DNA from: Micromonospora sp. WMMD1102
GTDB lineage: Bacteria > Actinomycetota > Actinomycetes > Mycobacteriales > Micromonosporaceae
Direction of reading: 5' to 3'
Assembly: GCF_029626265.1 (NCBI RefSeq)
Contig: NZ_JARUBN010000001.1
Span: forward strand, 1,488,001 to 1,552,000
DNA: 64,000 nt
Shown piece by piece: positions 42,625 to 55,476 of this stretch. Under the pieces are notes generated by a model. The model saw only the letters and a list, made by a program, of their open reading frames with translations, searched no databases and had not been told where the DNA came from. Each line of letters opens with the position of its first letter. Position 1 is the first letter of the stretch. The position numbers were made by a program, and so were the translations under genes.

Positions 42625-42888
42625 TTAGCCGAGGACGCTTGTGTACTGGCGAGCGGCGGCGGCACTGCCCTGGATGAGTGTGGCCGCCTCGGTGAGCCGC
42701 TGCTTGCTCTGCTCCGCGCGCTGGATCGCTTCGGCGATCATGGCGTGGTTGGTGCCGGCAGCCACCGCACGGAGACGAGCCAGCACCTGCTCGGTGTTCT
42801 CGATTGACGACCGGATCTGGTTGAGCGTGGTGTTGCCCTGCTCCGCAGCCTGTGCCAGTGCTGCTTTGACTTCCTCAATGCTGGCCAT
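42625..42888 (-). CDS. Small coiled-coil protein, unknown (first of operon)
   Basis: An 87-residue protein, two long helices (ASIEEVKAALAQAAEQGNTT, IENTEQVLARLRAVAAGTNH, AIQRAEQSKQRLTEAATLIQ). Size and helical hairpin shape are those of WXG100-type proteins, but no WXG motif is present. ATG 42888 has an excellent GGGGAGGA 6-7 bases upstream. It is first of four coupled minus-strand genes and lies 156 bases after the GntR gene, which reads in the same direction. Confidence 0.75.
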   Translation of the reverse strand: MASIEEVKAALAQAAEQGNTTLNQIRSSIENTEQVLARLRAVAAGTNHAMIAEAIQRAEQSKQRLTEAATLIQGSAAAARQYTSVLG

Positions 42889-43922: not shown

Positions 43923-44176
43923 TGACCGGCCGCTACGTCGTACACGTGCCGTTCACGGCGCCGGACCAGGACGCGGCCCGGCGGACGGCCCGGCTGCTGG
44001 CCCGGACGCTCGGCCAGCAGCCGCAGGTCGACCAGGCCGAGGCGACCGTCTCGGCCGAGGACGACCAGATCGTGCAGTCCCGACTCTTCTGCGACCGGCT
44101 CCTCGGCGCCGGTCGGCGCTGCGCGCTGCGGGCCGAGCACGAGGTGCCGTGCGCGAGCGTGGAGCTGGACCGGTGA
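43922..44176 (+). CDS. Small unknown protein of the DivIVA operon
   Basis: An 84-residue protein: beta strand (TGRYVVHVPFTAPDQDAARR), helix (TARLLARTLGQQPQVDQAEA), strand (TVSAEDDQIVQSRLFCDRLL) and two C-terminal Cys. The fold may be a small ferredoxin-like alpha/beta domain. No family is recognised. ATG 43922 shares one base with the preceding stop, and its own stop overlaps the next GTG, so it is fully coupled with both neighbours. Confidence 0.68.
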   Translation: MTGRYVVHVPFTAPDQDAARRTARLLARTLGQQPQVDQAEATVSAEDDQIVQSRLFCDRLLGAGRRCALRAEHEVPCASVELDR

Positions 44177-46362
44177 CCGGGGCGGTGCTGCCCGGCGCCG
44201 GTCCGCCGGTAGTCGACTGTCCCGCCTGTCACCGGCTCACCGTTGTCCTCGACGCCTGCCCCTGCACCAGCGGCGGTGACCGGATGCTCGTCGACGCGGG
44301 GCAACAGGGCGATGGGGAGGCATACCTGGACTGCCAGCTCTGCCGGGGCGCCGGCACCCTGCCCCGCCCCTGCCACCGTTGCCGGCAGGCCGGGCGGCTG
44401 CGCGGCCAACTCGTGCTGACCCTGGCGAATGCCGACACCGGGGCGGTGGCCTCGGCGAACGTCGTACCCGGAGTGGTGGAACCGGCGCGCTGGCCCGGTG
44501 ACGGCGGAAGCTGGCATCTGCCGCTGGCGCCGATCCTGGCGGAGCTGGCCGCCAGCGTCGGCGCCGGGTCCTGGACCGAGGCGCGCAACCCACCCGGTTC
44601 ACCCGACGGGCCCGTGCTGCTGCTGCCGTCCCGCTGGCGGCCGGACCTGCCGCCGGAGACCCGGGCCGTGCTGGAGGCGGAGACGATCGCGTCGCACGGC
44701 CATGTCGCCTGGCAACTCTACCTCGGTCGCACCGCCGCCGAGCCGCCCCTTGACCCCGCCCGCGAGCTGGCCCGACGCTGCCGGTTGGCCGACCTGCTCC
44801 GCCTCGACCTGGTGCTGGAGGCCCGCCGTCGGCACCTCGCCGCCGAGCCGACCTGGCAGCTCCGCTACGAGGTGCCGGGCGGGCCGGTGCCGACCGACGT
44901 GCGCGCCGGCTCTGACGACCTGACCGGGGCGATCGTCGCCACCACCGATCTCGACGCGCTCTATGACCTTGAGGCGCGCGGTCGGACCGCCCCGGCCCAC
45001 TACCTGACCGGCGGTGCGTCGCCGCCGGCCGCCCCGCCGGACGTCGACCTGGGCCAGCTCGAACGGCGGATGCTCGCCGACTGCACCGACCTGTCCACCG
45101 GGGCGCCGACCGCCGGGGCGCAGGCGATCTGGCGCGACGGTCGCTGGTGGCACACCAGTCTGCGGATCGCCGGCACCGCCGAGACGTTCAGCGAATGGGA
45201 CACCGGGCAGATCTATCTCCGGGAGACCATCGTCCTGCGGCGCGGCTGGCAGCCGCCGGCACCGTCGTGGCAGGGACCATCCATCCCGTACGTCGACTGC
45301 CCGCACTGCGATCCGCACAGCCGGCTCCGCCGCTGCGACTGCGTCCTGTTCACCGGCCGGGCCGACCCGGACTGCCCACAGTGCTCCGGTGCCGGTCGTC
45401 GACCGTCGGCGCTGCCCTGCGACACCTGCCGGGACAGTCACCGTATCCACCACAGCCTGACGGTCACGCTCACCGACCTGGCCGACCGGGTCACCCACCT
45501 GCACTGGCAGGCCGACCGGGACGGCTGGCGGGCCGGCGACCTCACCTGGCACGGCGACGCGCACCCCTCGGCAACCGGTGAGCAGGGCTGGCAGACCGGC
45601 GAACGGCTTGCGGCGCCGCACGTCGCGACCCAACCCGGCGGCAAGCCGGTGTACCAGCTTCCCGACCCGTTCCGGCTGGCGACCTGGGCCGACCAATTCG
45701 CCGTACGCCCGGACGACCTCACCGAACTCGACGGCGGCGGCTCGATCGGCCAGGGACTGCTGGACGGGACCGTCACCCTGCCTTATCCCGGCGCCGATCC
45801 GCTCACCGAACACCTGCGCCAGGCATCCCGAGGCCGGCCCGGTGCCCGGCTGTTCGTGCTCGCCCGCCGGCCCGACGTGCCGCCCCTGGCCGACCTGGTC
45901 CGGCTCCTCCTCGGGCTGCGACTCACCGTCACGGTCACCCTCGTCGACCACGGCGACAACGCGGGAGACCCCCGTCTCGTCCAGGGTGAAGGGTGGGACG
46001 TCGGCGTCGAACCGCCGGGGCTGCCGGTCGCCCCGGACGCCCTGCCGGCCCGTCCCACCCCGGAAGCCGCGATCGCACGCTGCCTCGAACAGCTCGAAAC
46101 CGCCGTCGCCCGGCGGGTCCCCGACGACCCGGCCCAGCCGATCCCGGTACCGCAGACCCCGGTCCCGGGCCTGGTCGAGGTCGACGATCCCGTACCGCTG
46201 ATCCGCCGGCTCGCCCGGCACCACACCGGTCAACCCGTCGCAGTCCACTACGACGGCACCACCTGCCAGCTGCTCGTGCACGACCGCGACGGCGTACGCC
46301 GACTCTGCGCCGCCCCGACCCTGCTCGCCGCGCTCGCCGCCCTCGGCCTCGGCCGCCGCTGA
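44173..46362 (+). CDS. Large protein with two DnaJ-type zinc-finger regions, no J domain
   Basis: A 729-residue protein with two separated cysteine-rich regions. Region 1 uses C16, C19, C29, C31, C54, C57, C67, C70; region 2 uses C376, C379, C388, C390, C401, C404, C416, C419. Both contain the DnaJ central motif CxxCxGxG (CQLCRGAG; CPQCSGAG). There is no J domain or HPD motif. Each finger is followed by a long beta/alpha region rich in Trp and His, which suggests an internal duplication. Zinc-dependent protein or nucleic-acid binding is likely; the rest is unrecognised. GTG 44173 overlaps the previous stop. Third gene of the GntR-controlled operon. Confidence 0.75.
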   Translation: MTGAVLPGAGPPVVDCPACHRLTVVLDACPCTSGGDRMLVDAGQQGDGEAYLDCQLCRGAGTLPRPCHRCRQAGRLRGQLVLTLANADTGAVASANVVPGVVEPARWPGDGGSWHLPLAPILAELAASVGAGSWTEARNPPGSPDGPVLLLPSRWRPDLPPETRAVLEAETIASHGHVAWQLYLGRTAAEPPLDPARELARRCRLADLLRLDLVLEARRRHLAAEPTWQLRYEVPGGPVPTDVRAGSDDLTGAIVATTDLDALYDLEARGRTAPAHYLTGGASPPAAPPDVDLGQLERRMLADCTDLSTGAPTAGAQAIWRDGRWWHTSLRIAGTAETFSEWDTGQIYLRETIVLRRGWQPPAPSWQGPSIPYVDCPHCDPHSRLRRCDCVLFTGRADPDCPQCSGAGRRPSALPCDTCRDSHRIHHSLTVTLTDLADRVTHLHWQADRDGWRAGDLTWHGDAHPSATGEQGWQTGERLAAPHVATQPGGKPVYQLPDPFRLATWADQFAVRPDDLTELDGGGSIGQGLLDGTVTLPYPGADPLTEHLRQASRGRPGARLFVLARRPDVPPLADLVRLLLGLRLTVTVTLVDHGDNAGDPRLVQGEGWDVGVEPPGLPVAPDALPARPTPEAAIARCLEQLETAVARRVPDDPAQPIPVPQTPVPGLVEVDDPVPLIRRLARHHTGQPVAVHYDGTTCQLLVHDRDGVRRLCAAPTLLAALAALGLGRR

Positions 46363-46557: not shown

Positions 46558-47139
46558 TCAGAGCCGGTCGATCTCGGTGAGGTCGATGTCGAGCTCGAAG
46601 GGCGTGCTCACCTTCACCCGGCCGTGGAAGATGCCGATCGGCTGGTAGACACGCTGCGCCTCGAGCAGCTCGTGGACGTAGACCGTGGGCTGGCCATCGG
46701 CCTCCTCCACTCGCCAGAAGTGCGGGATGCCGGCCTTCGCGTAGAGCTGCGGCTTTCGTTCGCGGTCGCGCAACCACGAGTCGGGCGAGACCACCTCCAC
46801 CGCGAGCGACACCGCATCGGCGGGATACCAGGTCTGGTCGTTGTCGATGTCCGCGTCGGCGCTCACCACAATCAGGTCGGGCTCGGGGCGCTGGTGCGGA
46901 CCGAGCACCACGGACATCTCGCGGCGGACCCGGAAGCGCTCGGGTGGCGCCGAACGCGCCAGTGCCTGCTCCAGCAACCGAAGAGTCTTCATGTGGAAGA
47001 GCTTCTGCGGGCTCACGAAGACGAGGCTCCCGTCGATCAGCTCGGTGTGCGGGGGAAGACCCGGGATCCGGTCGAGGTCCTCGGCGGTGAACCCACCGGG
47101 CGGCGGTCGGAACCTCTCGTACGCCGGCTCGGCGCTCAT
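46558..47139 (-). CDS. Uma2 family (PD-(D/E)XK-like) endonuclease
   Basis: A 193-residue protein of the Uma2/DUF820 family: FTAEDLDRIPGLPPHTELID (start of the nuclease fold), RPEPDLIVVSADAD, VSLAVEVVSPDSWLRDRERKPQLYAKAGIPHFWRV (in parts: LAVEVVSPDSW, RKPQLYAKAGIPHFW). The PD...ExV...K pattern is preserved. The family is widely expanded in actinomycetes and cyanobacteria, and its role is mostly unknown. ATG 47139 has GGGGGGTGAGG upstream. It is divergent from the trypsin-like protease gene. Confidence 0.9.
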   Translation of the reverse strand: MSAEPAYERFRPPPGGFTAEDLDRIPGLPPHTELIDGSLVFVSPQKLFHMKTLRLLEQALARSAPPERFRVRREMSVVLGPHQRPEPDLIVVSADADIDNDQTWYPADAVSLAVEVVSPDSWLRDRERKPQLYAKAGIPHFWRVEEADGQPTVYVHELLEAQRVYQPIGIFHGRVKVSTPFELDIDLTEIDRL

Positions 47140-47276: not shown

Positions 47277-48998
47277 GTGTCGCATTCGGGCCGCGCACGG
47301 TGGCGGGCATGCATCCGAGACGATCATGCCGGGATTCGCGGTGCCGGCCTCGTGCTCGGCAACCGGCATGTGCTGACCTGTGCGCACATCCTCCTTCCGG
47401 CGCCGCACGGCGAACCGGGTGCCGCGCACGCCAGGCCCGCCCGGGACTTCGAGGTCGAACTCGTCGGGCGACGTCCCGCCGTGGCGCCGATCCGGGCCGG
47501 AGTGGTCGACGGCTGCTGGAAGCCGCCGCAGGACGACCAGCGGGCCGACCTGGCCCTGCTCGGGCTCGCCGAGCCACTGCCGGAAGAGACCGGTCAGGTG
47601 CTGCGCCGGCTGCCGTCGGGCGCCCGCCGGGCGGTACGGATGTTCGGCTTCCCCGACATGGTCCCGACCGGGGTCTGGGCGCGGGCCCGGCTCGCCGGGG
47701 ACGGCGGACCGGGTGGCGAGTGGATCCAACTCGACTCCGAGCCGACCGGTCCGACCGTGGAGCCCGGGTTCAGCGGTACGCCGGTCTTCGACGAGGAGAC
47801 CGACCAGGTGCTCGGGATCGTGGTCAGCTATCTCGCCGGCCAGGGCTCGGCACTGTCCTGGATGATCCCGGTCGAGACGATCATCAGGTACCTGCCCCGG
47901 GTCCGCGAGTGGGTCAGCGGCGACTCGGCGGTGGACGCCAGCCTGGCCGCGCCCGTCGGTCCGGTGCACAGCGACGAGGCGGTGGTCCGGCAACTCGCCG
48001 ATTTTCTCGCCCCCGGCGCCCCGCCGGACTCGCGGATCATGGTCACCGCGCCCGGCTCGCCCGCGCAGGCCGCCCTGCGCGACGTCGTGCTGCGGACCAG
48101 CCGGGAGTTCCGGCCCGCCGGCCCCGACCGGAGCGGGCCGCCGCCGGCCGTCGCCGGTGAGTCCCGGCCGGGCCGGATCGACCTGGCGCTCGACGTGTCG
48201 GGCCGGACGGTGGCGGAGGTCAGCAGCCGGATCGTCAACTGGATGAGCGTCGGCGCCGAGTTGGAGAAGTCACTCGCCGACAGCATGGCGGGCGAGCCGC
48301 CGCCGATGAACCTGGTACTCGACGGGGTGGACCGGGCGGCCGACCCGGCGGCACTGGTCGCCGAGGTGGTCCGGCCGATCGCCGAGCGGGTCGCCGGACG
48401 GAACCTCCGGCTGCTGCTGACCTTCCACGACCACGACGCGCCGAGCCTGCCGTACGCCGCGATCGAACTGCTGGCCGCCCGGATCGCCGAGGTGCGGGCC
48501 GCCGAACAGGCGGCCCGGGAGCGGTACGTCCACGTCGCCGCCCGGGTCACCCCGGTCTCGGCTCCCGGATCACACGAACCGGGGCTGCGGCTGCGGCTGA
48601 CCGCGCTGCGGGCCGCCGCCGCGCAGCCCGGCAGCACACCGCTGCTGCCCGTCGTCGAGTCGTGCCGGCGCAGGGCCGACCGGGCCCTGGATGCCGCCAG
48701 GCGGGCGGTGCGGGACATGGAGTCGCTCCTCGACGAACGCGACCGGCTGCGGGACCGGCTCGACGGATACCGCTCGGGCGTGCCCGCGCCGCTGCGCGAG
48801 GACCGGGAGTTGACCGCGCTGTACCGGCGGGCCCACGAGGCGCTCTGGCAGGGGCCGGCCGACCTGACGGCGTGTGCCGTGCTCGTCGACCGGTACGGCA
48901 CGGTGATCCGGCGCCACACCACCGGCTCGACGCCGAAGCAGGACGGGCCGGGGCTGAGGCAGGACGGGCCGGGGCAGGACGGGGGGGCGGTGCGGTGA
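47277..48998 (+). CDS. Trypsin-like serine protease with C-terminal unknown domain
   Basis: A 573-residue cytoplasmic protein. Residues 1-215 are a trypsin-like fold with the full triad: H37 (RHVLTCAHILL), D91 (RADLALLGL) and S167 (EPGFSGTPVFD). Residues 330-450 hold a conserved domain (PPPMNLVLDGVDRAADPAAL, NLRLLLTFHDHDAPSLPYAA) and about 455-500 a coiled coil. There is no signal peptide. It is the first gene of a five-gene operon (overlapping GTGA with the kinase gene). The protease may act on a signalling partner after kinase input. A shorter second copy lies at 60.5 kb. Confidence 0.85.
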   Translation: MSHSGRARWRACIRDDHAGIRGAGLVLGNRHVLTCAHILLPAPHGEPGAAHARPARDFEVELVGRRPAVAPIRAGVVDGCWKPPQDDQRADLALLGLAEPLPEETGQVLRRLPSGARRAVRMFGFPDMVPTGVWARARLAGDGGPGGEWIQLDSEPTGPTVEPGFSGTPVFDEETDQVLGIVVSYLAGQGSALSWMIPVETIIRYLPRVREWVSGDSAVDASLAAPVGPVHSDEAVVRQLADFLAPGAPPDSRIMVTAPGSPAQAALRDVVLRTSREFRPAGPDRSGPPPAVAGESRPGRIDLALDVSGRTVAEVSSRIVNWMSVGAELEKSLADSMAGEPPPMNLVLDGVDRAADPAALVAEVVRPIAERVAGRNLRLLLTFHDHDAPSLPYAAIELLAARIAEVRAAEQAARERYVHVAARVTPVSAPGSHEPGLRLRLTALRAAAAQPGSTPLLPVVESCRRRADRALDAARRAVRDMESLLDERDRLRDRLDGYRSGVPAPLREDRELTALYRRAHEALWQGPADLTACAVLVDRYGTVIRRHTTGSTPKQDGPGLRQDGPGQDGGAVR

Positions 48999-51346
48999 CC
49001 GACAGGTGCAACCGTCCGGACTGCACCGGGACGGTGGACGAGACCGGCTTCTGTGACACCTGCGACCGCCGGCCGCTGCCCGCCACGACCGGCGGCGGAC
49101 CGGCGTCCTTCGCCGTCACCGGCACCACCGGCTCCGGCTCTGGCTCTGGCTCCACAGCCTCCGGTGGCCCGTCCTGGCTGGTCGGCGGCCTGGTGCCGAT
49201 GCCGGAGTTGGAACCGGCCGACCCGGTGAGCCGGTTGCGCGGCGACACCGAGGTGCCCGAGGCGAGCCGGTTCTGCGGCCGGTGCCGGGCCGAGGTCGGC
49301 CGGGGGTACGCCGGCCAGCCCGGCCTGCTGGAGGGCTTCTGCGGCCACTGCACGACGCCGTTCTCGTTCGCCCCGAAGCTGCACCGGGGTGACCTGGTCG
49401 CCGACCAGTACGAGGTCGACGGCTGTCTGGCCCGGGGCGGCCTCGGCTGGGTCTACCTGGCCCGGGACACCCACCTGGACGGCAATCCGGTCGTCCTCAA
49501 GGGACTGATCACCAACAGCGACGCGGCGCTACGGCTGGCGGTCGCCGAACGGCGCTTCCTGACCACCCTGGACCATCCCAACATCGTCCGGATCTTCAAC
49601 TCGGTCAACCACCGCGACCCGCAGACCGGCGAGCGGGCCGGCTACATCGTGATGGAGTACCTGAACGGCCAGTCCCTCCAGGACGTGCAGGAGGCCGCCG
49701 CCCGGGGTGTCGCGCCGCTGCCGGTCGAGCACGTCCTGGCGTACGGGCACGAGATCCTCGCGGCGATGGAGTACCTGCACGGCCGGGGGCTGCTCTACTG
49801 CGACATGAAGCCGGCGAACGTGATCCGCTGCCCGGACCGGATCAAGGTGATCGACATCGGTGGCGTACGCCGGATCGACGACGACCAGAGTCCCAAGGTC
49901 GGCACCGACTTCTACCAGGTTCCGCCGGACGAGATCCGCCGGCACGGGCTGACCGTCCGGTCCGACATCCACACCGTCGGCCGGACCCTCCAGGTGCTCT
50001 TCGAGGTCAGCGAGGAGGGGCGCCGGGCGGCGCCGGCCGGGCGGGCCGACGGGATCGCGTTCGGGGTGGAGTCCTTCGTCCGGCTGGTCAACCGGGCCGT
50101 CGCCGGGCACGACCGCCGGTTCGCCACCGCCGCCGAGATGTCGCAGCAGCTCAAGGGGGTACTCCGGGAACTGCTGTCGCTGCGTACCGGCCGGCCGCAC
50201 CCGGTCCGGTCCACCGTCTTCGCGCCGACCCCGGTGCTGCTGGACGCCGGGCTCGGCGCCGTGCCGGGGCTGGACGTCTGGATCCGGGGCGAGACCGGGC
50301 TGCTCGACATCGCGCCGCCGTCCCCGTCGTCGGCGGCCGGTGCGCTGCCGCAGCCGGTCGTGGACCCGGACGACGAGGCGGTGGACCTGCTGGCCACCGC
50401 CGGTGCGGCGGACCCGCGCGGACTGGTCGAGAAGTTGGCCAACTCCGGGCTCCGGTCGGTCGAGGTGCGGTTCGCGCTCTGCCGGGCGTACCTGGAAGCG
50501 GGTGATCCGGACAGCGCGGCCGGCGCCCTGGACGCGGCCGTGACCGACCTCGGACCGCTGGCCGACCACGACTGGCGGGTCCGCTGGCACCGCGGCCTGC
50601 TCGCGCTGTCCCGGGCGACGGGGCCGGCGGCGGAGGCATGGGCGGCCGGGGCCCAGCTCAACGCCGCCGACACCGAGTTCAACGCCGTCTACTCCGACTG
50701 TCCCGGCGAGATCGCCCCGAAGCTCGCTCTCGCCTTCTGCGCCGAGCACCTGGGCGAGCGGTTCCGGGCGGAGCAGCTCTACCAGGCGATCTGGCGGCGG
50801 GACCGGAGCGAGGGCAGCGCCGCGTTCGGGCTGGCCCGGCTGCGGCTGCACGACGGCGACCGGGCCGGGGCGGTGCGGGTGTTGGACGAGGTGCCGAGGG
50901 AGACCCTGCACTACGAGCGGGCCCGGGTCGCGGCGGTCCGCATCCTCTGCGGCCGGCTGCCGGTCGGCGGGCCGAGCGTCGACGACATCGCCGAGGCGCT
51001 GCGCCGGCTGCCGGCGCTGCACCTGGACGGTGGCAACCCGACCGGGGAGGCCAGGGACCGACTGACCGCGCTGGTCCAGGCGGCGGCACTCGGCCTGTTC
51101 CGGGACGGCGGCCGGGCCGGGCCGGGCGAAGGGCACGGCTCCAGGCTCGGCGAAGGGCTTGGCGAGAGGCTCGGCGGAGGGCTCGGCGACCGTGCCGACG
51201 TGCTCGGCCCGGAGCCGACCGAGGACGGCCTCCGGCGCCGGCTGGAACGGTCGATGCGGGTACTCGCCGGGCAGGCCCGGACGATCGAGGACCACGGTGC
51301 CCTGGTGGACCTCGCCAACGCGGTACGCCCGAGGACCCCGTGGTGA
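48995..51346 (+). CDS. PknG-like serine/threonine protein kinase with zinc ribbons and TPRs
   Basis: A 783-residue kinase. Zinc ribbon 1 uses C5, C10, C20, C23; zinc ribbon 2 uses C94, C97, C116, C119 (the rubredoxin-like site of PknG). The kinase domain runs from about 139: glycine loop ARGGLGWVYLA, K169, ERRFL, catalytic YCDMKPANVI and VIDIGGVRRI (DxGG in place of DFG, as PknG DLGA). A TPR-like helical region fills 460-700, and a disordered GEGHGSRLGEGLGERLG repeat precedes the C-terminus. It matches mycobacterial PknG in domain order. GTG 48995 overlaps the protease stop. Confidence 0.92.
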   Translation: MTDRCNRPDCTGTVDETGFCDTCDRRPLPATTGGGPASFAVTGTTGSGSGSGSTASGGPSWLVGGLVPMPELEPADPVSRLRGDTEVPEASRFCGRCRAEVGRGYAGQPGLLEGFCGHCTTPFSFAPKLHRGDLVADQYEVDGCLARGGLGWVYLARDTHLDGNPVVLKGLITNSDAALRLAVAERRFLTTLDHPNIVRIFNSVNHRDPQTGERAGYIVMEYLNGQSLQDVQEAAARGVAPLPVEHVLAYGHEILAAMEYLHGRGLLYCDMKPANVIRCPDRIKVIDIGGVRRIDDDQSPKVGTDFYQVPPDEIRRHGLTVRSDIHTVGRTLQVLFEVSEEGRRAAPAGRADGIAFGVESFVRLVNRAVAGHDRRFATAAEMSQQLKGVLRELLSLRTGRPHPVRSTVFAPTPVLLDAGLGAVPGLDVWIRGETGLLDIAPPSPSSAAGALPQPVVDPDDEAVDLLATAGAADPRGLVEKLANSGLRSVEVRFALCRAYLEAGDPDSAAGALDAAVTDLGPLADHDWRVRWHRGLLALSRATGPAAEAWAAGAQLNAADTEFNAVYSDCPGEIAPKLALAFCAEHLGERFRAEQLYQAIWRRDRSEGSAAFGLARLRLHDGDRAGAVRVLDEVPRETLHYERARVAAVRILCGRLPVGGPSVDDIAEALRRLPALHLDGGNPTGEARDRLTALVQAAALGLFRDGGRAGPGEGHGSRLGEGLGERLGGGLGDRADVLGPEPTEDGLRRRLERSMRVLAGQARTIEDHGALVDLANAVRPRTPW

Positions 51347-51413
51347 CGAGTCCACACGCCGCTGGCGACGGTTCGAGTCCCGGGACGGTGGCGATCCGAT
51401 GGGAGGTGCCGGC

Positions 51414-52949
51414 GTGACGTCAGGTCCCGGCGGGGGAGGCCCGCCACACGCGTTCGGGTTGGAGGTCGTGCAGAACCCGTACCGGTCGACCTCGGACACC
51501 GGGATGGCGGTCGTACTCCGGGTCACGGCCCGGACCCCGGACCGGTCGGCGTTGCCGGCGGCCGGCACGGCCGGGGTGGTGGTACTCGTCGACTGCTCCA
51601 GCTCGATGGGCTACCCGCAGTCCAAGATCGTGGCGGCGAAGCAGGCGACCCGGGCGGCGATCGACACCATCCGGGACGGCAGCAGCTTCGCCATCGTCGC
51701 CGGCACCGAAACCGCCCGGATGGTCTATCCCGACCGGGCGAGGACGGCAGTGGCCAGCGCGAGTACCCGGACGGCGGCGAAGCGGGCGGTCGGGCACCTC
51801 TACGCGGGCGGCGGTACCGCGATGGGGCAGTGGCTGCGGCTGGCGCACCAGCTGCTGGGGCCGTACCCGGACCTGGTGCGGCACGCGATCCTGCTGACCG
51901 ACGGGCGTAACGAGCACGAGACAGCGGAGCAGCTCGAAGAGGTGCTGACGAGCAGCGCCGGCACCTTCGTCTGCGACGCCCGGGGCATCGGCGACGACTG
52001 GGACCACCGTCAACTGCTACGGATCACCTCGGTGCTGCGCGGCACGGCCGAGGCGGTCGGACAGGTCGAGGAGCTGGTCGCCGACTTCGGGTCCATCATG
52101 GACAGGGCGATGGGCAAGCAGGTGCCCGACCTGCGGATCCGGCTCACCACCGCACCCGGGGTACGGGTCCGGTCGGTACGCCAGGAGACGCCGACGCTTG
52201 CCGACCTCACCGAGCACGCGACGGTGCTGGACGACCGCACCACCGAGTTCTACCCCGGTTCCTGGTCCGGCGAGGAGAGCCGCGACTTCCTGGTCGACCT
52301 GGCGATCGGCTACGTATCCGCCGGCGAGCGCCCACCGCTGGAGGAGGAACGCCGGGCGGCCCGGGTGGACCTGCTGATGGCCGGCGAGCGGTGCGCCGAC
52401 CCACGGCCGATCGTGTTGCGCTGGACCGACGACCCGGTGGCGCCGACCCGGATCGAGCCGGTGCTCGCCCGACACCTGGGCCAGGAGGAGTTGGGCGACG
52501 CCGTGGCGGCCGGCTGCGACGCGCTGGAGGCGGGGAACCGGAAGCTCGCCGAGGAGCAACTCGGACTCGCCGTCGTCCTGGCGCAGCGGCTCGGCGCCAC
52601 CGAGGTGCTGCACCGGCTGGCCGGGCTGGTGGAGATCACCGGCGACTCCGACCACCCTGCACGGCTCAGGCAGGACTGGACCCGCAGCGCGCTGCTCCGG
52701 GTCGCGGTCAGTTCGGTGATGGTCGGCGACGCGGAGCCGCCCTGGGATCCCCCGCACCCCGGGCCCGCACCCCGGTCGCCGCTGCCGGCCGAGGCGGAGC
52801 CGGGGACGGAGCCCGCCGCCGTGCCGACACCCCGGGGCGGTGCCGACCAGGTCTGTCCATGCGGGCGGATCTCGCCACCCGAGGCGGCGGCGTGTGAGGC
52901 GTGCCGCCGGCCGTTCGAGGCGGCGACGGCCGGCGGCGAGGTGAACTGA
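51414..52949 (+). CDS. VWA-domain protein with C-terminal zinc ribbon
   Basis: A 511-residue protein. The von Willebrand A domain (about 54-240) has an intact MIDAS, DCSSSMG (D60, S62, S64), with GGGTAMGQWL and LLTDGRNEHE. A beta-sandwich region and a helical region follow. The disordered Pro-rich linker leads to a final zinc ribbon CPCGRIS..CEACRR, similar in kind to the kinase's ribbons. It is probably a metal-dependent adaptor. GTG 51414 has GGGAGG 7 bases upstream; ATG 51399 is a weaker alternative. It starts 67 bases after the kinase gene and shares one base with the next start (TGATG). Confidence 0.88.
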   Translation: MTSGPGGGGPPHAFGLEVVQNPYRSTSDTGMAVVLRVTARTPDRSALPAAGTAGVVVLVDCSSSMGYPQSKIVAAKQATRAAIDTIRDGSSFAIVAGTETARMVYPDRARTAVASASTRTAAKRAVGHLYAGGGTAMGQWLRLAHQLLGPYPDLVRHAILLTDGRNEHETAEQLEEVLTSSAGTFVCDARGIGDDWDHRQLLRITSVLRGTAEAVGQVEELVADFGSIMDRAMGKQVPDLRIRLTTAPGVRVRSVRQETPTLADLTEHATVLDDRTTEFYPGSWSGEESRDFLVDLAIGYVSAGERPPLEEERRAARVDLLMAGERCADPRPIVLRWTDDPVAPTRIEPVLARHLGQEELGDAVAAGCDALEAGNRKLAEEQLGLAVVLAQRLGATEVLHRLAGLVEITGDSDHPARLRQDWTRSALLRVAVSSVMVGDAEPPWDPPHPGPAPRSPLPAEAEPGTEPAAVPTPRGGADQVCPCGRISPPEAAACEACRRPFEAATAGGEVN

Positions 52950-54088
52950 TGACGACGGCGCCGACCGGGCCGACCCGGGCGAGCACCACCCGGCGTACCC
53001 TGCTGCGCCTGCTCGGCGCCCTGCTGGGCGTGACGGCGCTGGTGCTGGCCGGCTCGCTCGCCGTGGTCTGGGGCACCCACCGCACCGCCGACACCGTACG
53101 CGGCCGGAGCCTGCCCTCGGTGATGGAGCTGTCCGCCGTGCGTACCGCACTGGTCCGGGCCGACACGGCGGCGATCACCAGCTTCCAGACCCGGCAGGCC
53201 GGCCTCGTCGGGCCGGGCGAGGAGTACCAGAACCAGATCGCCGCCGCCAGCCAGAGCCTGGCCCAGGCCGCCGAGGACATCGGCTCCGGCGGCGCCGGCA
53301 GCCGGCAGATCCAGGTGGTCGAGGGGCTGCTCGTCACGTACGTCGGGCTGATGGGGCAGGCGGACGCGCACTACCGGCAGAGCGGGCCGGGCGGCCTCGC
53401 CACCGCCTACGCCTGGTACGCCTCCCGCCTGCTGCACTCCGACGGCGGCATCCTGGCCCTGCTCGACAGCCTGCTGGCGGCGGAGAGCGAGGCGCTGGAG
53501 GCGAGGCTCTCGTCCGGCTGGCTGAGCCCCGGCGCCACGCTACTCTGGCTGGTGCCGGCGCTGCTGCTGCTCGCCCTGCTCGTCGGCACCCAGGTCTTCG
53601 TGCGCCGCCGGTTCCGCCGGGCGGTCAACTGGGGACTGGCCGCCGCCACGGTGCTGCTGGTGCTGCTCACCGCCGGCACGTCGTTCGTGCTCGTCTCGAA
53701 GGGCCAACTCGCCGACGCGCACGGGGAGCTGGCGGAGGTCCGCCGGCTGTCGGCGGAGCAGTCCACCGGCGCCGACCGGGAGGGGGTCGCCGCACTCGAC
53801 GAACTGCTCGCCGACTTCTGCCCGCCGACGGACGGCTGCCAGGTCACCAGCGACGTGTTCCGCACCGGTACGGCCGCCGGTTCGCCGGACGCGGTGTCGT
53901 CCCCGGCGCTTCCGGCGGCGGACCCGGACGTGCTGCGCCGCGCCGAGGAGGTCGACGACCAGGCCGCACTGGCCACCGCGGCGACCTCGGGTGCCTTCGT
54001 CGTACTGCTGCTGACGTCCCCGTTTCCGTTCCTCGTCTGGCTGGGGCTGCGGCCGCGGATCGAGGAATACCGGTACCGGTCGAGATGA
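52949..54088 (+). CDS. Four-helix membrane sensor/transducer, GlnX-like by position
   Basis: A 379-residue membrane protein. TM1 spans about 17-41, an outside helical domain of 150 residues follows (VMELSAVRTALVRADTAAIT, YQNQIAAASQSLAQAAEDIG; a 4HB/chemoreceptor-like pattern), then TM2 about 195-214 and TM3 about 227-249. A second outside loop holds two Cys (FCPPTDGCQ), and TM4 is about 341-367. No kinase or HAMP domain. Lying between a PknG-like kinase and a binding lipoprotein, it has the position and shape of mycobacterial GlnX, which passes ligand signals to PknG. Overlaps both neighbours (1 and 4 bases). Confidence 0.8.
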   Translation: MTTAPTGPTRASTTRRTLLRLLGALLGVTALVLAGSLAVVWGTHRTADTVRGRSLPSVMELSAVRTALVRADTAAITSFQTRQAGLVGPGEEYQNQIAAASQSLAQAAEDIGSGGAGSRQIQVVEGLLVTYVGLMGQADAHYRQSGPGGLATAYAWYASRLLHSDGGILALLDSLLAAESEALEARLSSGWLSPGATLLWLVPALLLLALLVGTQVFVRRRFRRAVNWGLAAATVLLVLLTAGTSFVLVSKGQLADAHGELAEVRRLSAEQSTGADREGVAALDELLADFCPPTDGCQVTSDVFRTGTAAGSPDAVSSPALPAADPDVLRRAEEVDDQAALATAATSGAFVVLLLTSPFPFLVWLGLRPRIEEYRYRSR

Positions 54089-55476
54089 GGCAACGGATGC
54101 GACGAACGCTCGCCAAGCTGGTCCTGCTGCCGGTGCTCGCCGTCGGGCTGGGCCTCGGCGGCTGCCTGGGCCAGCCCGACGAGGAGACGGTCACCGTGCT
54201 GGCCTCCTGGACCGGTGCCGAGGAGGAGAGCTTCCGGGCGGTGCTGCGCGAGTTCGAGGAGCGGTTCGGCGTCGACGTCGACTACCGGGGCACCCGGGCG
54301 GTCCGGCAGATCCTCCTGGCCGAGGTGCAGAAGGGCACCCCGCCGGACGTCGCCGTGCTGCCGACGGTGAGCGAACTGGCGGCGTACCTGCGCCGGGGCG
54401 TACTCCGGCCGCTCGACGCCGATCCCGCCTCGTCGATGAGCCCGCAGTGGCGCGCACTGGCCCAACTCAACGGCGGTGGCGGCCTGGACGTCGTGCCGAT
54501 CAAGGCCGACCTGAAGAGCCTGGTCTGGTATGTGCCGGGGCGGGTGCCGTTCGGCGCGGCCGGGCCGCCGCAGGACTGGGCGGCGCTTGTCGAGACCAGC
54601 CGGTCGCTGGCACGGGCTGGGCAGACCCCGTGGTGTCTGGGGATGAGCGCCACCCCGGGCTCCGGCTGGCCGGGAACGGACTGGATCGAGGACATCCTGC
54701 TGCACCGCTCGGGCGCGGCGGCCTACGACGCCTGGTCGGCCGGGCGGCTCGGCTGGACCTCGTCCGAGGTACGGGCGGCCTGGAACGCCTGGGGCGACCT
54801 GGTCGGCTTCCCGGGGATGGTCCGGGGCGGCAGCGCCGCCGCCCTGCTGACCGAGTTCACCGACGCCGGCCGGCCGATGTTCACCGGATCGCCCGGCTGC
54901 CTCCTCGAACACCAGGCGTCGTTCGTGATCGGGATGCGGGCCGGCTATCTCGAAGGCGAGTCGAGCGGCACCGTCCGGGCGGCGGACGTGCTCGGTGCGG
55001 ACTACTTCCCCTTCCCGGTCTTCGCCGGTGCCGGCCCGGCCGGGCGGGACGGTTCGATGGCCTCGGCCGACTTCGCCGGTCTGTTCAGCGACAAGCCGGC
55101 GGCCCGTCGCCTGATCGAGTTCCTCGCCACCGACCAGGCCCAGCGGATCTGGCAGGGTGGCAGCGCCGGCAGCTTCTTCTCGGTCAACCGGGACGTCCGG
55201 CCCGACGACGACACCGCCGCGCCGGACACTGTGGACCGGCGGCCGGAGGTGAGCAGGAGGATCGCGGAGACCCTGACGGCGAGCCGGAGTCCACTCTGCC
55301 TCGATGCCTCGGACGTGATGCCGAGCGCGATGGCGAACGCCTTCCAGACCGCCGTACTCGAATATCTCCAGTATGGCGCGGAGCGGCTGGACTCGCTGCT
55401 GGGGGACCTGGAACGGCTCCGCGTCGCCATCCCGCCCGACGAGTGGCTGCCGGGTGCGTGCAGCGCACCGGTTTAG
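54085..55476 (+). CDS. Extracellular solute-binding lipoprotein
   Basis: A 463-residue lipoprotein: signal MRQRMRRTLAKLVLLPVLAV, lipobox LGGC (Cys near 27), then a family-1-type binding protein (VTVLASWTGAEEESFRAVLR, PPDVAVLPTVSELAAYLRRG, GTDWIEDILLHRSG, FLATDQAQRIWQ). The type is that of sugar/oligosaccharide binders, but no ABC permease or ATPase is encoded nearby. The last gene of the operon; it overlaps the membrane-protein gene by 4 bases. The orphan state suggests a sensor role, as for GlnH with GlnX/PknG, but with a different ligand. Its end overlaps the convergent small gene by 4 bases. Confidence 0.88.
   Translation: MRQRMRRTLAKLVLLPVLAVGLGLGGCLGQPDEETVTVLASWTGAEEESFRAVLREFEERFGVDVDYRGTRAVRQILLAEVQKGTPPDVAVLPTVSELAAYLRRGVLRPLDADPASSMSPQWRALAQLNGGGGLDVVPIKADLKSLVWYVPGRVPFGAAGPPQDWAALVETSRSLARAGQTPWCLGMSATPGSGWPGTDWIEDILLHRSGAAAYDAWSAGRLGWTSSEVRAAWNAWGDLVGFPGMVRGGSAAALLTEFTDAGRPMFTGSPGCLLEHQASFVIGMRAGYLEGESSGTVRAADVLGADYFPFPVFAGAGPAGRDGSMASADFAGLFSDKPAARRLIEFLATDQAQRIWQGGSAGSFFSVNRDVRPDDDTAAPDTVDRRPEVSRRIAETLTASRSPLCLDASDVMPSAMANAFQTAVLEYLQYGAERLDSLLGDLERLRVAIPPDEWLPGACSAPV

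Follow-up and report, generated by a model that had tools for sequence, protein, structure and literature searches.

A protease-bearing paralogue of the PknG signalling operon in Micromonospora and related actinomycetes

Architecture of the five-gene unit

The soil actinomycete Micromonospora sp. WMMD1102 carries a five-gene unit at positions 47277-55476 (+) of a 64,000-nt stretch of its genome (hereafter, the window), encoding, in order, a trypsin-like protease, a PknG-type Ser/Thr kinase, a protein with a von Willebrand factor A (VWA) domain, a GlnX-like protein with four transmembrane (4-TM) segments, and a solute-binding lipoprotein. All five genes are on the plus strand. They overlap by 4 bp (protease/kinase), 1 bp (VWA/4-TM), and 4 bp (4-TM/lipoprotein), and the sole intergenic gap, of 67 bp, separates the kinase and VWA genes. 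The five genes are confirmed to be real and to form one unit: the overlapping or abutting layout claimed in the original prediction is borne out by the gene coordinates and by the recurrence of the same order elsewhere, as described below. Among named proteins, those of Plantactinospora are closest.

The unit is a variant of the known PknG relay, real and conserved. The GlnH-GlnX-PknG relay has been demonstrated in mycobacteria and Corynebacterium (PMC6069109, PMC9769921). As far as it is described in those papers, it shares with the unit the tetratricopeptide repeat (TPR) and rubredoxin domains of PknG (the latter absent in corynebacteria), a 4-TM relay protein that has two outer domains, a binding lipoprotein not accompanied by a permease, and the arrangement in one operon. 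The unit differs from it in having a solute-binding protein (SBP) of family PF01547 rather than PF00497, a shorter GlnX that falls below the profile cut-off, a VWA protein, and a protease, and in being a paralogue beside a canonical copy.

The kinase (783 aa; 48995-51346) has the full PknG architecture, with the kinase, rubredoxin, and PknG_TPR families all above cut-off. An N-terminal zinc ribbon (Cys 5/10/20/23; 49007-49063), visible in the sequence and with its Cys residues present in 30 of 40 aligned kinases and in a gap in 10, precedes the rubredoxin domain (49178-49381; PF16919, 1e-17), the catalytic domain (49409-50176; PF00069, 1e-24), and the TPR domain (50267-51337; PF16918, 9.4e-60). 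A second Cys set lies at residues 94/97/116/119, and the kinase motifs read ARGGLGWVY and YCDMKPANV, with K169, D270, N275, and D287 present in 40/40. The best PDB chains are those of PknG (2pzi, 2.9e-117, then 4y0x and 7q52), followed by 7mxb (5.5e-76) and 7mxj (5.3e-54), which are labelled only as Ser/Thr kinases, and by StkP (5.4e-20). In a domain tree from which 6 of 17 PknG rows, missed by a motif filter, were left out, the 11 remaining PknG-type rows were split from eight other kinases of the same genome at 100%. On these PDB matches and this split, assignment to another group of actinobacterial Ser/Thr kinases was rejected; thus profile, PDB, and tree checks agree on the PknG type that had been claimed.

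The VWA protein (511 aa; 51414-52949; PF13768, 5.1e-15) has an intact metal-ion-dependent adhesion site, whose residues (DxSxS-T-D) are kept in 40/40 proteins, and a C-terminal zinc ribbon (52854-52904) whose Cys residues are present in 40, 40, 40, and 39 of 40. Its start was placed at the GTG at 51414, behind GGAGG; an alternative ATG lies at 51399.

The 4-TM protein (379 aa; 52949-54088) shows hydropathy peaks at residues 22-40, 195-213, 231-249, and 349-367, leaving two extracytoplasmic domains of about 154 and 99 residues. It matches the GlnX profile NF058618 at 1.7e-32 and 113 bits, below the cut-off of 250; the host's canonical GlnX reaches 420 bits. No match to NF041460 was found, and no solved template was better than E 0.15. 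Profile-profile alignment by hhalign nevertheless joins the variant and canonical GlnX end to end (99.9%, 1.2e-32, 350 columns) with the same tail motif. This alignment makes the 4-TM protein homologous to GlnX over its whole length, in line with the original prediction, though under the NCBIfam GlnX cut-off.

Residues kept in variant and canonical GlnX (39 and 76 rows, respectively) include Tyr131 (100/100%), Arg224 (100/100%), and Asn227 (87/92%), the latter two at the cytoplasmic loop. Conservation extends to the C-terminal tail, G-x-x-x-R-x-x-E-Y-R (54044-54073), at Gly366 (92/100%), Arg370 (90/100%), Glu373 (92/96%), Tyr374 (100/87%), and Arg375 (90/84%). The TPR domain has been proposed to bind GlnX termini (PMC6069109), and the conserved tail, a candidate kinase contact, may supply the motif for that contact.

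The lipoprotein (463 aa; 54085-55476) belongs to SBP family 1, the sugar type (PF01547, SBP_bac_1; 2.7e-14), with lipobox Cys27 invariant in an eight-row alignment. A profile of these eight rows matched AcbH (1.8e-11) and binders of maltose, glucose, chitin oligosaccharides, and xylo-oligosaccharides in the PDB, so that a carbohydrate-like ligand would fit the fold family. The lipoprotein is an orphan, as claimed, standing beside a GlnX/PknG pair with no permease gene among the six neighbouring genes scanned. It is not a GlnH, however: the canonical GlnH of the same genome belongs to SBP family 3 (PF00497). In two Chloroflexi loci, ABC permease genes come after a related SBP gene (two of them in L130; in L167, one was checked), an order that suggests that the sensor SBP was derived from a transporter.

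Canonical operons and recurrence of the variant

PknG_TPR is present in 77 of 150 Micromonosporaceae genomes, from which 60 loci of 12-20 kb were fetched, about 40 further PF16918 places being left out. The family counts use 56 of these loci, seven of which are of the five-gene type; L080 (a second copy) and L070, L092, and L093 (PknG call absent) were omitted. Beside pknG, these loci carry genes for VWA in 54 (exceptions, L058 and L073), PP2C in 35, FHA in 40, GlnX in 46, GlnH in 45, and a coiled-coil protein, c4, in 40. The counting script placed L096 in the trypsin class through an SBP match; its gene map says otherwise. Pfam scans of representatives identified GlnH as PF00497, PP2C with a double zinc ribbon, and FHA, and gave no family above cut-off for c4.

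In the wider class, PknG_TPR is present in 143 of 394 genomes. Forty regions were chosen to span families rather than at random, and 34 were counted (omitting three of the five-gene type, two with SBP only, and one 3-kb stub), 33 of them with a PknG call. VWA lies beside pknG in 22 of the 33, and PP2C together with VWA in 19. Only glnX/glnH accompany pknG in nine: five of the eight loci of family f2, both counted loci of family f3, L242, and L228, which stops at a contig end. Two f2 loci carry VWA (L212, L240). Family f2 appears to be mycobacterial, the GlnX of L210 scoring 856 bits with NF041460, and family f3 is Pseudonocardiaceae, as L239 is identical to L127 from Actinokineospora.

The commonest operon in the sample thus reads glnX-glnH-coiled-coil-pknG-PP2C-VWA-FHA, and the mycobacterial glnX-glnH-pknG trio is a short form. 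With VWA adjoining pknG in 54/56 family loci and 22/33 class loci, a gain of the VWA gene in the present operon was rejected, and the earlier claim that the relay had acquired a VWA/zinc-ribbon adaptor fails. The GlnX, PknG, VWA, and coiled-coil tail of the seven-gene operon all have direct counterparts in the unit. The unit differs in having no PP2C gene and no FHA gene, an SBP of another family, a protease fusion in place of the coiled-coil gene, and its sensor genes last. A canonical pknG operon (L079) is also present in the host genome, and the five-gene unit is therefore a paralogous system.

Two further operon types were seen in Micromonosporaceae loci. In L039, L055, L067, L076, and L077, a NACHT NTPase gene follows the VWA gene and PP2C is lacking. 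These operons resemble the unit in their sister kinases, the lack of PP2C, and the presence of an NTPase-type partner. They differ from it in carrying GlnX and GlnH in four of five maps (not L055) and the coiled-coil gene in all five, in encoding NACHT by a gene of its own (the L039 sequence has an intact P-loop), and in lacking trypsin. L057 and L094-L097 show another type, with pknG-VWA, mostly FHA, followed by GlnX- and GlnH-like genes and one transporter-like gene, forming a second copy in one genus.

The five-gene type occurs in seven further Micromonosporaceae genomes (L047, L049, L054, L056, L074, L075, and L078), that is, in at least 8 of 150 with the host. Five of the seven also have the canonical operon (L090, L089, L044, L088, and L053); of the other two, G075 has a second, unmapped PknG place and G107 shows only the variant. 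A set of named loci, the best 80 of a longer list of lipoprotein relatives, contains the exact five-gene order in 39, spread over Pseudonocardiaceae, Streptomycetaceae, and Micromonosporaceae; the two sets overlap by at least two loci, L100 being apparently L054 and L128 apparently L074. The hosts include Amycolatopsis, Kutzneria, Lentzea, Saccharothrix, Streptoalloteichus, Actinokineospora, Crossiella, Micromonospora, Plantactinospora, Streptomyces, and Kitasatospora. Another five loci hold kinase-VWA-GlnX-like genes, one end being uncalled, fused, or cut. Three Amycolatopsis loci and 19 GlnX-like/SBP pair loci are taken up below, 12 are of other kinds, and two (L136, L168) have no called gene in the mapped stretch. 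The claimed co-occurrence of the five genes is thus upheld, and rarity of the set, which would have spoken against it, was not found. This recurrence also refutes, as practically inconceivable, an array of unrelated neighbours abutting by chance, the order being the same in 39/80 named loci from three actinomycete families.

For the five proteins (38 loci; L100 and L142 left out), pairwise distance matrices agree at r 0.81-0.93, with none of 999 permutations reaching the observed value for any of the ten protein pairs, part of this agreement reflecting species kinship of the hosts. The five-gene set is shown to be inherited as a unit. In a 102-row FastTree of PknG, one 38-row branch (99) unites all 33 five-gene-type kinases with those of the three Amycolatopsis loci, L109, and L058, and is sister to the five pknG-VWA-NACHT operons (98). 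A 63-row IQ-TREE, for which five odd or duplicate rows were removed and three large groups thinned at random, gave 99 both for the five-gene clade (23 rows) and for this clade with the NACHT type.

The protease gene: trypsin domain, NACHT-like module, and shared tail

The protease (573 aa; 47277-48998) begins with a Trypsin_2 domain (residues 22-181, 47340-47819; PF13365, 1.2e-8) with His37, Asp91, and Ser166. No signal peptide was found on inspection by eye, and the cytoplasmic trypsin-like protease of the original prediction is thereby supported. In an alignment of the window protein and 39 relatives, the His is present in 31 of 40 (seven gaps, two substitutions), the Asp in 37 (two gaps, one Glu), and the Ser in 37 (two gaps, one Gly). 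Genes of the fetched loci were called by our own open reading frame scorer and some starts are short, which we think accounts for most of the seven gaps at the His. The single sequence had no PDB match at E 0.05. With a 33-row profile, the first domain matched Do-like and glutamyl-endopeptidase-type serine proteases (best, 8.3e-6), and the tail matched coiled coils, tropomyosin among them (about 0.01); no solved template covered the central module among the best 60 of 138 PDB matches.

The C-terminal tail (residues 396-548; 48462-48920) matches the hidden Markov model (HMM) of the canonical coiled-coil protein c4 at E 1.3e-20, and at 99.35% and 6e-21 in profile-profile alignment by hhalign. 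Furthermore, c4 lies directly upstream of canonical pknG, and the protease directly upstream of variant pknG. The shared tail and position identify the protease gene as the c4 counterpart, in which other domains precede the tail. The protease that the relay was said to have gained is hence present in the unit, though not as a plain addition: it replaces the coiled-coil gene and retains its C-terminal tail. The central region is not part of this homology, as that region alone gave no signal against c4.

Between trypsin domain and tail lies a P-loop-less NACHT-like module (about residues 210-395; 47904-48461), which has moderate profile support. When aligned by hhalign to the NACHT protein encoded in the sister operons, the module scored 37.7 (E 1.9e-4 for one comparison; probability 48%), whereas the highest score among 40 column shuffles was 16.9 and that among nine other families 22.9; another run gave a probability of 60%. 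The aligned P-loop block reads GPAGSGKT in NACHT and APGSPAQA in the protease, which also has a Walker-B-like LVLDGVDRA with a variable first Asp (15/40 relatives) and a conserved second Asp (37/40). The module is thus likely to be a dead, degenerate NACHT/STAND module. A protein-database search with it returned 10 proteins, mostly close relatives, among the 8000 top word-sharing candidates scored.

Proposed signalling order, alternative explanations, and flanking genes

We propose, with about even confidence and from sequence comparison, that the unit is a diverged paralogous PknG signalling operon acting as a ligand-gated switch for intracellular proteolysis. The ligand-loaded lipoprotein would dock onto the helical domains that the GlnX-like protein exposes on the outside, and the cytoplasmic loop and EYR tail of the latter would act on the PknG TPR domain; PknG would then signal to the protease, the pathway output, by way of the VWA/zinc-ribbon adaptor and the shared tail, giving the putative order ligand, SBP, GlnX-like protein, PknG, VWA, protease. 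As the unit lacks PP2C and FHA genes, it probably does not encode the old output, and the protease, its only new enzyme, is the favoured output. A fuller version is more tentative and falls well short of even confidence: in multicellular actinomycetes, a new kind of transmembrane switch would let an outside ligand act through the lipoprotein/GlnX-like relay and PknG/VWA to activate the trypsin-like protease, with a threshold set by the dead NACHT-like module, and orphan GlnX-like/SBP pairs that bear the same tail would plug further ligands into PknG.

Several observations weigh against the proteolytic switch. Three of the 80 named loci, all from Amycolatopsis, keep kinase, GlnX-like, and SBP genes without VWA or protease, so that the protease is dispensable there; as this trio is nested in the five-gene kinase clade, loss of VWA and protease is the most likely explanation. 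In 19 of 80, a GlnX-like/SBP pair stands without an intact PknG alongside, although one of these is a broken five-gene locus (L126) and two are cut by contig ends (L129, L163). The kinship component of the distance-matrix agreement and the moderate strength of the NACHT profile match (hhalign 48% and 60%) count on the same side.

The stand-alone GlnX-like/SBP units without PknG (L099, L101, L125, L135, L140, L141, L143, L144, L150, L153-L155, L159, L164, and L173) bear the R-x-x-E-Y tail in 11 of 15; across all 19 pair loci, R-x-x-E-Y is found in 15, E-Y-R in 12, and E-F in four. These units may feed PknG in trans. A dedicated partner gene beside the pairs was sought and rejected, the neighbours varying by eye in 13 pair loci (L119 partial, L129 cut).

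A rather unlikely alternative is a second metabolic PknG relay, in which the sensed ligand has shifted from amino acids to a sugar-like solute, the kinase keeps as its substrate an FHA protein of the GarA/OdhI type whose gene lies elsewhere, and the protease serves only as a scaffold through its tail. The PknG-like kinase, rubredoxin, and TPR domains are all consistent with it, as are the identity of the protease tail with that of a canonical coiled-coil protein lacking a protease domain and the absence of the protease from the Amycolatopsis trio. However, trypsin Asp and Ser are retained in 37/40 proteins, the FHA and PP2C genes of canonical operons are missing from the unit, and the canonical copy persists in the genome.

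Slightly less likely still, in our estimate, is a conflict or cell-fate system in which a trypsin-NACHT-like-Trypco1 effector, such as has been predicted for multicellular bacteria, took over the PknG relay as its trigger. Trypco1 adjoins 19 of the 39 five-gene operons (by an HMM built from four sequences, two of them Pfam-confirmed), the NACHT-like module aligns with the sister-operon NACHT well above shuffles and other families, and trypsin-Trypco, iSTAND, and kinase-PP2C-vWA neighbourhoods have been published (PMC7159879, PMC8195603). Trypco1 with trypsin, and the kinase-PP2C-vWA theme in actinobacterial GAP1-N2 neighbourhoods, are described in PMC7159879. Intracellular trypsin, a probable P-loop-less STAND-like module, and vWA, as well as the Trypco1 neighbour of 19 of the 39 five-gene relatives though not of the host unit, are common to those systems as far as these papers describe them (PMC7159879, PMC8195603) and to the unit. 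In contrast to them, the unit has no match to MoxR ATPase or VMAP and would be driven by a solute-binding/PknG relay, and neither 'PknG' nor 'solute-binding' occurs in the main texts of the two papers. Furthermore, Trypco1 is absent beside the host unit and the units of two genus mates, the host genome having one elsewhere. The five proteins gave no Pfam match to MoxR and no domain beyond those assigned. Filing the unit under defence by PADLOC was rejected, the protease having only weak RT-Protease_XI matches (2.5e-5, 3.3e-4); the kinase matched kinase models through its kinase domain (32 families, best 5.8e-31, e.g., PD-T4-6 and MAD6), and the VWA, GlnX-like, and SBP proteins had no match.

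Were the proteolytic switch correct, an outside signal would control protein cutting inside the cell, as the recurrence of the five-gene set in many actinomycetes suggests. PknG is usually studied as a three-gene amino-acid relay, whereas the commonest sampled operon adds coiled-coil, PP2C, VWA, and FHA genes. The VWA and coiled-coil proteins, absent from the operons of model species, are thus candidate missing parts of PknG signalling. That one branch seems to have turned the relay towards a protease makes testable what else PknG can control and how GlnX touches PknG; two small, mutable candidates are the conserved C-terminal tail of GlnX and the tail that the protease has in common with the coiled-coil protein. 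Among the listed titles and abstracts of open-licence papers, none was found that links PknG to a VWA protein, to a trypsin-like protease, or to Trypco1. PknG, von Willebrand, and operon reportedly come together in a single paper, a domain survey of kinases published in 2005 (PMC1262709).

Upstream of the protease gene, a Uma2-like putative endonuclease gene (46558-47139; PF05685, 3.2e-23) runs the opposite way, making the protease gene the first of the unit. Further upstream, 44173-46362 encodes a protein of 729 aa that matches no Pfam family and in which several CxxC motifs resemble zinc ribbons. No MoxR match was found among the six neighbouring genes scanned. The same assembly also contains, on contig C4, a near-identical second 20-kb copy of the region from window position 42719 onward (L080), in which the VWA gene is split by an insert of ~1.6 kb carrying a DDE transposase (PF13701, 3e-47); this copy possibly reflects a strain mixture or an assembly variant.

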